In this document: positions 7,757-18,557 of the stretch, one piece after another
Layout: each line of letters begins with the position of its first letter
How positions within the stretch are numbered: the stretch's first letter is position 1
Program-made: the position numbers and the translations under genes
The notes under the pieces: model-generated
Databases searched by the model: none
What the model was told of the DNA's origin: nothing
What the model saw: only the letters and a program-made list of their open reading frames with translations
DNA from: a virus
Reading direction: 5' to 3' (one strand)
DNA length: 20,879 nucleotides
Virus record (IMG/VR): IMGVR_UViG_3300034954_000236
Coordinates: 1 to 20,879 of that record

Positions 7757-8304
7757 TGAACGAAGAAATGATGACAGCAGGAACAGGAGGTTTCAGTGGC
7801 AGTGCTGCTGCGACAGGTCCTAATGCGGGTTATGATCCAGTCTTAGGTTTTAAAAAGAAAGTTCAAAAAAGAAAAAAAGTACAAAAAGAATCCAGAGAAA
7901 ATCCAACACAACCATCCAGACTTTTCCAATACAAAGTAAACGTTCCTGGGATCGGTGATACTATTATCTACGCTAATAGTCCTGCTGAACTCAAGCAAAA
8001 ACTCAGACTGATGATCATGCCTCAGTATAGGTCTGACATCAGCATCGAAAGAATTCTTCCTGCTAACGCTGCGAAGTTTTTTATGGACAAGAGAATGAAG
8101 CATATGAGAAATGTTTCTGAGGAAACTGTGCAAGAAAATGCAGAGGCACAGATGAAACAGAAGCAAGCGATGATGAAGGTTGCTATAGAGAAAAAGAAAG
8201 TGATGATGAAGAAGCAAGAATTAGCAAAGCAACTTCAAATGAAGACCGCACAACTTAAAAAACAAGCAAGGGCAGGGGCAGATCAAGACGCAGCAAAGAC
8301 CTAA
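7756..8304 (+). CDS. conserved cyanophage protein with C-terminal Met/Lys/Gln-rich helix
   Basis: This 182-residue protein starts at an ATG overlapping the previous stop (TAATG). The N-terminus is Gly/Ala/Ser-rich (TAGTGGFSGSAAATGPNAG) and followed by a Lys-rich patch (FKKKVQKRKKVQK). Residues 55-120 form a probable globular domain (FQYKVNVPGIGDTIIYANS, IMPQYRSDISIERILP). Residues 120-182 are a long charged helix (KQKQAMMKVAIEKKKVMMKK), probably a coiled coil. No known enzymatic motif is visible. Its position between two conserved virion-block genes suggests a structural or assembly role; I cannot name it further. Confidence 0.78.
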   Translation: MNEEMMTAGTGGFSGSAAATGPNAGYDPVLGFKKKVQKRKKVQKESRENPTQPSRLFQYKVNVPGIGDTIIYANSPAELKQKLRLMIMPQYRSDISIERILPANAAKFFMDKRMKHMRNVSEETVQENAEAQMKQKQAMMKVAIEKKKVMMKKQELAKQLQMKTAQLKKQARAGADQDAAKT

Positions 8305-8684
8305 TGTCTGACCTCAACACCGCCATAATTGAAAGACTAGAGAAAGTAGTAGATACCCTTCAAGACAACAGTGTAAAGATGGGTCAGATTCTTGCTGTCC
8401 ATAATGAGAAGTTAGATAAGCAAGACCAGATAGATCAAGTATTATTTGAGAAGATCGATAGGTTACATTCCGATCTTAATCGTGATACAGAAGCAATCAA
8501 AAGGGGGTGCGAGCGTGACATACGCAAAATCGACGAACGTCTTAGACTCATGGAAAAGAAGATGTGGTCTATATTTGGTGCTCTTAGTATTATATCTTTC
8601 CTCGTTAGTCCAATCGGACAAAACTTCCTCAACAACACAGGGTTGACAGAAACTCAAAACAGTAGTATCATAGAAAAGCAATAG
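8304..8684 (+). CDS. coiled-coil protein with C-terminal membrane anchor (XhlA-like architecture)
   Basis: This 126-residue protein starts in a TAATG overlap. Residues 1-85 are a heptad-like coiled coil (RLEKVVDTLQ, EKIDRLHSDL, IRKIDERLRLMEKK), followed by one transmembrane helix at about 88-103 (MWSIFGALSIISFLVS) and a short polar tail. This layout resembles the XhlA-type lysis-associated proteins of phages, but many unrelated anchored coiled coils look the same, so a lysis role is only a possibility. The last codons overlap the host-type promoter that drives the primase-nrd operon. Confidence 0.75.
   Translation: MSDLNTAIIERLEKVVDTLQDNSVKMGQILAVHNEKLDKQDQIDQVLFEKIDRLHSDLNRDTEAIKRGCERDIRKIDERLRLMEKKMWSIFGALSIISFLVSPIGQNFLNNTGLTETQNSSIIEKQ
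8643..8671 (+). promoter_or_regulatory. host sigma70-type promoter for primase-nrdA-nrdB
   Basis: TTGACA (8643-8648), 17-base spacer, TATCAT (8666-8671). The -35 is perfect and the -10 matches five of six bases. Transcription would start near 8678, about 18 bases before the primase start. It lies inside the end of the preceding gene and separates the virion-type block from the replication/nucleotide genes. Confidence 0.75.
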
Positions 8685-13292: not shown

Positions 13293-13300
13293 TATAAATA
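13293..13300 (+). promoter_or_regulatory. T4-like late promoter, perfect TATAAATA
   Basis: An exact TATAAATA box sits 45 bases before the riboswitch-like core and about 100 bases before the ATG of the 54-aa peptide gene. A second TATAAATG follows at 13299-13306. The expected start near 13307 would place the whole aptamer in the leader. Confidence 0.75.
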
Positions 13301-13344
13301 TAAATGTAGCAAAGGATACATTTTGTATTCGATGTTACCATCTA

Positions 13345-13392
13345 CGTTCAACCTCCTCGGAGGTCGCAAGTAGGTCGCGGAACGGAGCGTTC
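13345..13392 (+). promoter_or_regulatory. glutamine-II ('downstream peptide') riboswitch-like leader
   Basis: The pattern CGTTC (13345-13349), hairpin ACCTC-CTCG-GAGGT (13351-13364), CGCAAGTAGG (13365-13374), then GAACG (13380-13384) matches what I know of the glutamine-II (downstream-peptide) riboswitch of marine Synechococcus and their phages: a P1 of CGUUC/GAACG, an inner hairpin and an AAGUAGG strand. A second CGTTC at 13388-13392 can pair with the same GAACG across a GAG loop, giving a P1-competing hairpin just before the ATG at 13398. As in known cases, a short peptide gene follows. The family match is from memory; ligand binding is inference. Confidence 0.75.
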
Positions 13393-13397
13393 ATCTC

Positions 13398-13562
13398 ATG
13401 CTAGGAATTTTCCTCTTTTATACTACTATTAATTGCATTGATGCGGTCGATATGATCGAACGTCTCGAAGCACATAAAAGTATGAATGACGCAGTTAAGG
13501 TAGAACTTGTTGAAGTAATTCAAGAAGCAACACCACACTGCCCATGGGACGCAAACGACTAA
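13398..13562 (+). CDS. small riboswitch-associated 'downstream peptide' type protein
   Basis: This 54-residue protein starts six bases after the riboswitch-like leader. It begins with a hydrophobic segment (MLGIFLFYTTINCIDAVDMIERLE) and has a helical charged middle (KSMNDAVKVELVEVIQEATP) and the tail HCPWDAND. I recall similar small ORFs behind glutamine-II RNAs in cyanophages but know no function. The first 10-15 residues could insert in a membrane or be a packing helix. If the leader responds to glutamine, the peptide may interfere with host nitrogen assimilation, by analogy with glutamine-synthetase inactivating factors of cyanobacteria; that is speculative. Confidence 0.75.
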   Translation: MLGIFLFYTTINCIDAVDMIERLEAHKSMNDAVKVELVEVIQEATPHCPWDAND

Positions 13563-13601
13563 AGGAACGGGCGAAAATCCAACTACTTTAGGAGAAAACA
13601 A

Positions 13602-13736
13602 ATGGCACAAGTCGTTTACCGTGGGGTTTCTTACAACCCAGAGGAGTACAAAGCAAAAGTACTCGCAGAAGCAAATCAAGAAAGAAATCACGAACTTATG
13701 TATCGTGGTATCAAACTTGTAAAGAAAGTTAAGTGA
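13602..13736 (+). CDS. DUF4278-like microprotein (double YRG motif)
   Basis: This 44-residue protein has a good AGGAGA ribosome binding site eight bases before ATG 13602. It contains two copies of the YRG core (VVYRGVSYNPEEY near the start, LMYRGIKLVKKVK at the end), the hallmark of the DUF4278 family common in cyanobacteria. It is a host-like small protein of unknown function and probably part of the late or middle transcript from 13293. Confidence 0.75.
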   Translation: MAQVVYRGVSYNPEEYKAKVLAEANQERNHELMYRGIKLVKKVK

Positions 13737-18410: not shown

Positions 18411-18522
18411 GGTGAGGGAATCCTCACCTTTTCTATGTGCACCCCTCAAACCGAGACCTATAGGGTGGTTAAATCACGTCTCTCATACCTTCTCCTGAGG
18501 GTGGAGAAGGAATAATACCTTC
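18411..18522 (+). promoter_or_regulatory. structured psbA leader (PhotoRC-like)
   Basis: Three elements are visible: a hairpin GGTGAGG-GAAT-CCTCACC (18411-18428) followed by TTTT; a possible H-type pseudoknot, CACCC (18440-18444)/GGGTG (18463-18467) with GAGAC (18453-18457)/GTCTC (18478-18482); and CCTTCTCC (18488-18495)/GGAGAAGG (18503-18510), whose 3' arm can alternatively pair as GAAGG with CCTTC at 18518-18522. Structured leaders of cyanophage psbA genes were described as PhotoRC motifs; the match to those is from memory. The first hairpin with its U-run could act as an attenuator. Confidence 0.65.
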
Positions 18523-18557
18523 AGTGTTCCCTGCACTAATACATAACCCTTATTCAA

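Follow-up and report, generated by a model that had tools for sequence, protein, structure and literature searches.

A riboswitch-like element of a T4-like cyanophage is probably a glutamine-I riboswitch with an enlarged P3, into which a P4 hairpin and a P5 stem have been inserted; a complete phrog_504 gene would serve as the P5 loop. Riboswitch aptamers are normally compact domains that lie outside coding sequence; to judge from the sequences compared here, the P5 loop would be a complete small protein gene (phrog_504) in this phage and in most of its relatives. The analysed window is the entire IMG/VR record IMGVR_UViG_3300034954_000236 (20,879 bases), in which nrdB is followed by the riboswitch-like element, a series of small genes, and then talC and psbA. 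The nearest isolate is cyanophage P-RSM1, which shares 98.3% identity over the element. The features of the locus are collected in Table 1. Two other RNAs were seen in the material: a PhotoRC-II RNA (76 bits) lies at window positions 18427-18523 upstream of psbA, an arrangement already familiar from cyanophages, and manA RNA (RF01745) shares fetched loci with the element (L022, 918-1112; L053, 1640-1839).

Table 1. Features of the element and its surroundings (window positions)
Feature	Position	Strand	Basis or partner
TATAAATA, T4-like late-promoter-type box	13293..13300	+	enriched just 5′ of the element in isolate copies
CGUUC1, P1 5′ strand	13345..13349	+	aptamer partner GAACG2 13565-13569
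P2 hairpin	13351..13364	+	13351-13355 with 13360-13364; covariation
CGC + AAGUA (loop-E 5′ strand)	13365..13372	+	RF01739 alignment; ligand-site geometry (PMC6698751)
P3 5′ strand GGUCG	13373..13377	+	partner CGACU 13556-13560; covariation across the ORF
P4 hairpin GAACG1-GAG-CGUUC2	13380..13392	+	13380-13384 with 13388-13392; strands invariant
P5 5′ strand UCUCAUG	13394..13400	+	holds the start codon of the nested ORF
Nested ORF, 54 aa, phrog_504	13398..13562	+	predicted two-helix protein
P5 3′ strand CAUGGGA	13543..13549	+	encodes the end of ...PWD
P3 3′ strand CGACU + loop-E strand AAA	13556..13563	+	contains the ORF stop codon 13560-13562
GAACG2 (P1 3′ strand) + G13570	13565..13570	+	
Expression platform	13559..13591	+	CUAAAG 13559-13564 with CUUUAG 13586-13591; covariation, minimum-energy fold
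44-aa DUF4278 (YRG) peptide gene, likely controlled gene	13602..13736	+	Pfam; PMC6316151

The initial annotation had described a TATAAATA box followed by CGTTC, a hairpin, AAGTAGG (13368-13374), GAACG and a second CGTTC (13388-13392) before an ATG (13398), and all of these features are present. It had read them as a glutamine-II type leader of a 54-aa peptide. However, the stretch from CGTTC1 to GAACG1 (13345-13384) is the 5′ half only of a glutamine-I (glnA-type) aptamer, and the likeness to glutamine-II arises because this half was read alone. The 3′ half (13543-13570) comprises the last codons of the ORF (WDAND), its stop codon and the 8 following bases, and forms P5, P3, the loop-E strand and P1. 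The ORF thus sits inside the aptamer rather than simply downstream of a leader, and a glutamine-II RNA with simple competition before the peptide was dropped as an explanation once the 3′ half had been found beyond the ORF. The second CGTTC, proposed as a competitor for GAACG, is able to compete but is also a structural strand of P4. The complete aptamer would carry a loop-E motif, a mark of the glutamine-I aptamer (PMC6698751). P1, P2 and P3 make up a three-way junction, in which P2 and P3 are backed by covariation and the strands of P1 are present and invariant; one P3 pair of the window copy is G-U, and C13367 is predicted to pair long-range with G13570. We take AAGUA and GAA to be the two loop-E strands on the basis of the RF01739 consensus and of the general features of loop E. 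Among 163 arrays the strand opposite AAGUA, itself required by the search pattern, reads GAA in 114 and AAA in 49; the AAA of the window is a one-base departure from GAA.

A covariance-model search had been suggested as a check, and its outcome differed between copies. In the window no match was reported at the Rfam gathering threshold: a search of 451 nt matched both models over their full length, at 28.9 bits for RF01739 (E 2.8e-4; cut-off 35) and 26.0 bits for RF01704 (E 2.0e-4; cut-off 33). Natural copies that lack the ORF are recognized by RF01739 as one aptamer of 86-97 nt at 38.4-43.6 bits (nine relatives at 38-44 bits), with 38-48 nt placed in the P3 loop in the alignments shown for such copies. 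The window copy, which stays below the RF01739 cut-off, has the ORF in the P3 insert, and the model is unable to span it. It is best described as a variant that would work like glutamine-I, not as a certified member of RF01739. RF01704 has a pseudoknot with GAACG in the loop of a second hairpin, and the consensus of that hairpin aligns poorly here. GAACG1 is enclosed by P3, although the 3′ strand of P3 is found only past the ORF.

The arrangement is widespread. A tblastn search with the 54-aa protein alone returned 319 phage records, and in 27 of 27 isolate copies fetched across the ranking the RNA element stands directly before the ATG. All 27 of these isolate phages carry the arrangement, and since they were found by protein alone, the link between RNA and protein is not a product of RNA-based searching. 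A phage-borne glutamine-riboswitch-like leader, as first proposed, is upheld. The RNA part matches RF01739 and RF01704, and the conservation of the element before the homologues found through their protein leaves no doubt that it is real. Further copies came from DNA-pattern scans of viral contigs; 163 non-identical arrays formed the covariation set. All copies of the first scan except one cut-off contig share an order of parts: the CGTTC ahead of the ATG, next a complete ORF or in its place a short hairpin, and then a second core, ACGC...(G/A)AAGGAACGG. The core of ORF-less copies, e.g. cgttcatcccttcggggacgcaaacgactaaaGGAACGG, is identical to the core that elsewhere encodes the last phrog_504 residues and the stop codon. 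DNA similar to one ORF-less copy occurs in 425 phage records. An exact-pattern scan of genome contigs for the composite gave 8 matches, two of them in Prochlorococcus single-cell assemblies and the remainder in marine MAGs and in Streptomyces and Nonlabens contigs. Two unusual layouts were also met: L204 (6526-6830) contains a triple array, in which three cores occur with a single ORF and an empty hairpin, and L202 (minus strand, 5323) contains a lone canonical glutamine-I aptamer that has CGCAAGTA and whose P3 is a plain hairpin, possibly the ancestral form without insert.

The pairing scheme is supported by comparison among the copies. Across the ORF, P3 is paired in 743 of 810 cells in 162 arrays, against 721 ± 2 after shuffling (0 of 2000 shuffles reached 743), and P5 in 722 of 854 cells in 122 arrays, against 646 ± 8; for P2, 397 of 425 pairs compare with 282, all of these shuffle tests leaving shared ancestry in place. 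The count excess for P3 is modest because most of its positions vary little. When the partner strand is slid, pairing drops from 0.917 to at most 0.41 for P3 and from 0.974 to at most 0.62 for P5. Two-sided changes in P3 lead from AGUCG:CGACU to AUUCG:CGAAU (P-RSM4), to AGUCA:UGACU (several contigs) and to GGACGG:CCGCCC; in a long class of copies, where P3 carries C.A mismatches, pair 8 changes from U-A to A-U (38 and 14). For 14 ORF-less copies (MAFFT alignment A3) 98.4% of cells are paired and covariation amounts to 0.287, compared with 0.090 ± 0.015 after shuffling. RNAalifold, to which the model was not supplied, chose P1 as CGUUC1:GAACG2 together with P2, P4 and P5; it favoured a short, almost invariant CGC:GCG pairing over P3. 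As the strands of P1 and P4 are invariant, covariation cannot choose between CGUUC1:GAACG2 and CGUUC1:GAACG1.

The same strands could be divided into two aptamers in tandem, a glutamine-II-like one closed by CGUUC1:GAACG1 and a second one closed by CGUUC2:GAACG2, with the ORF in the second only and P3 as a contact between the two. Doublets of glutamine riboswitches have been reported (157; PMC9481103). Taken by itself, the first half reaches 26-29 bits with RF01704 and RF01739, and RF01704 reaches 34.0 and 35.7 bits within two arrays (L094 and L125). Copies of the long class can have a second half that passes RF01739 unaided (L055, 40.3 bits; L062, 35.3 bits). Nevertheless, in the short class, to which the window belongs, the composite outscores the separate halves with RF01739. 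The loop-E strands are split, with AAGUA only in the first core and (G/A)AA only in the second, and P3 joins both halves and co-varies. In one array (L162, minus strand, ~8250-8330) GAACG1 is lost and P4 broken, yet P3 and GAACG2 are kept. Because of the split loop E and the covariation of P3 we regard the tandem arrangement as unlikely and retain a single aptamer that encloses the ORF.

The nested ORF is a real gene: in the body of phrog_504, pN is smaller than pS in 390 of 390 pairwise comparisons (median ratio 0.40). The 54-aa peptide belongs to no Pfam family and to a PHROG of unknown function; its AlphaFold model consists of two helices (pLDDT 79.8), and no PDB fold matched below E 0.001. 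A host origin was dropped as an explanation for phrog_504 after a search of 121 genomes (genus of a Prochlorococcus single-cell assembly) returned no match, a weak result as the control was unmatched too. The tail of the ORF behaves differently from the rest. In the 113 arrays with an ORF that extends through the core, every one of the 222 Asp codons of the tail is GAC, compared with 58 GAC and 246 GAT (58/304) upstream. The core is also kept in two copies whose ORF ends early (L025, L080), and occurs where it is non-coding. This points to RNA-level selection on the tail, and the conserved WDAND/DAKAD tail of phrog_504 is at least partly dictated by the RNA.

These data also bear on the view that the 54-aa peptide gene is simply the gene behind a leader that controls it and that the match beyond the ORF is incidental. 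The gene order would suit it, as would a GGAG motif that lies 10 nt ahead of the ATG and extends into the P4 loop. However, the 3′ half is identically conserved where the ORF is absent, the tail never departs from one Asp codon, the P5 strands on either side of the ORF co-vary, and a DUF4278 peptide gene comes next at every determinable locus, whether the ORF is there or not. We consider an ordinary leader extremely improbable; the most likely target is the DUF4278 gene and not, as first assumed, the 54-aa peptide.

Other genes occupy loops of the element as well. A phrog_6471 gene (~66 aa) lies inside the P2 loop in L005, L011, L018, L019, L023-L025, L027 and others; P2 is built from the start and stop regions of this gene, whose tail, GRK-stop, is encoded by the core GGACGCAAGTAA in some copies. 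phrog_13397 is found in P5 of L033, L046 and L123 and a similar-looking protein in P2 of L056, which suggests gene exchange between two homologous loops, P2 and P5.

The late-type promoter box of the initial annotation has also held up. TATAAATA occurs once in the window, which alone is not significant with 0.81 occurrences expected by chance. Of 28 copies (the window and the 27 isolates), 13 have it no more than 70 nt upstream of the element, where ~0.013 are expected per 70 nt; in isolates the box is specific to the position before the element. Many metagenomic copies have TATAAT in its place. Between box and aptamer a possible 5′ terminal hairpin can be drawn at 13306-13338 (GTAGC..GTTAC enclosing GGATAC..GTATTC), and other phages carry different sequences there which are apparently self-complementary as well.

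In all 150 arrays where it could be determined (112 containing the ORF, 38 lacking it), the gene 3′ of the element shows the DUF4278 motif YRG. The window peptide scores 24.9 bits against the Pfam cut-off of 25.3, and one relative lies above it at 27.9 bits. Cyanobacterial glutamine riboswitches are mainly linked to DUF4278 genes, which are activated on glutamine binding, and in IF17, a glutamine synthetase inactivating factor, DUF4278 covers the N-terminal part (PMC6316151). The host glutamine-II leaders fetched here adjoin downstream YRG peptides, too. Between aptamer and DUF4278 gene, CU(G/A)AAG of the aptamer has a possible pairing partner in CUU(C/U)AG of the ribosome site; in the window this sequestor pairing overlaps part of the site AGGAG (13590-13594). 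The two sides change together: loop-E A is accompanied by partner C in 0 of 48 cases, whereas 54 of the 100 copies with loop-E G have partner C (Fisher 8e-13, or 7e-7 when only unique leaders are counted). Such a co-varying sequestor hairpin leads us to infer a putative glutamine-ON switch for the DUF4278 gene. In the lowest-energy fold predicted for the window leader (-68.7 kcal/mol), the sequestor is formed and CGUUC1 is paired with GAACG1 (13380-13384). Forcing all aptamer helices gives -64.6 kcal/mol, a cost of 4.1 that excludes contributions of ligand, loop E and triples; this pair of predicted folds has the look expected of a ligand-ON switch.

In the absence of glutamine, CGUUC1 and GAACG1 would pair and the sequestor would cover the DUF4278 ribosome site (OFF). 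With glutamine bound, P1, P3 and loop E would close and consume the sequestor strand, so that DUF4278 would be translated (ON), as in the host. The closed aptamer might in addition hold the nested start codon in P5, which could favour the nested ORF at low glutamine, and ribosomes that translate this ORF might unfold the sensor. P5 is present in the predicted ligand-free minimum too, which makes the effect on the nested ORF uncertain.

According to published contacts glutamine is held by the strands CGUUC, post-P2 CGC and GAACG (PMC6698751), and all three are present in the element. An RNA that keeps this fold but has lost glutamine sensing, and for example binds another metabolite or only times translation, would be in line with two departures: the glnA consensus CGGA reads CGCA here, and loop-E GAA has become AAA in 30% of arrays. 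Against this, the contact strands are kept, and the exchange of CGG with GAACGC in the glnA consensus for CGC with GAACGG in the element would preserve the long-range pair. The downstream DUF4278 gene also fits the host glutamine regulon, and loss of glutamine sensing seems very unlikely to us compared with a glutamine-responsive aptamer. An inner set of strands, GAACGG1, CGUUC2 and CGC2, repeats the ligand-contact strands in permuted order. This allows a more speculative and rather doubtful extension with two interlocked glutamine sites, an outer canonical one and an inner permuted one (GAACGG1-CGUUC2-P5-CGC2), in which glutamine would shut the nested ORF and open DUF4278 and translation of the ORF would block sensing. 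If true, one sensor would control two genes in opposite directions and would hold one of them within itself.

Cyanophage glutamine riboswitches and tandem glutamine riboswitches were already known (PMC9964418, PMC9602691, PMC9004378, PMC9481103). With glutamine-I (glnA, type 1; RF01739) the element shares P1 CGUUC/GAACG, the P2 hairpin, the post-P2 ACG, loop-E AAGUA/GAA (with AAA for GAA in the window), P3 and the position before a DUF4278 gene. It differs in the P3 loop with P4 and P5, the complete ORF inside P5, the long-range pair, which is C:G instead of G:C, and the score of the window copy below the cut-off. With glutamine-II (Downstream-peptide, type 2; RF01704) of marine picocyanobacteria it has in common CGUUCA-hairpin-CGC(A) and the GGAACGG strands, and the host downstream peptides are DUF4278 proteins like that encoded behind the phage element. 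The glutamine-II hairpin around GAACG is absent from the phage element, and glutamine-II itself is without loop E and without a nested ORF. glnA RNA has been noted in cyanophages including S-CREM1 (PMC9964418), where the match of 99 nt fits an ORF-less composite copy, and glutamine riboswitches of methylophage, pelagiphage and cyanophage have been listed (PMC9004378); the parts of these two reports considered here describe no nested ORF, insert architecture or DUF4278 link. Doublets and triplets of such sequences are known from tandem glutamine riboswitches; however, these are separate aptamers and ORF-interrupted cases were excluded by design (PMC9481103), whereas here one aptamer extends across the ORF. 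The literature searched describes no protein gene inside this aptamer and no splitting of it; partial anticipation is possible. A protein gene inside a glutamine-I aptamer, in many viruses of ocean cyanobacteria, appears to be new.

With a whole gene in the sensor and its last codons chosen to fold that sensor, coding and sensing would compete for the same bases. The layout hides a widespread element from Rfam and gives a misleading protein signature in the tail of phrog_504. It would connect cyanophage infection to the host's glutamine-controlled DUF4278 regulon, which is related to the glutamine synthetase inactivating factor, and makes phage reading of host nitrogen status a directly testable question.
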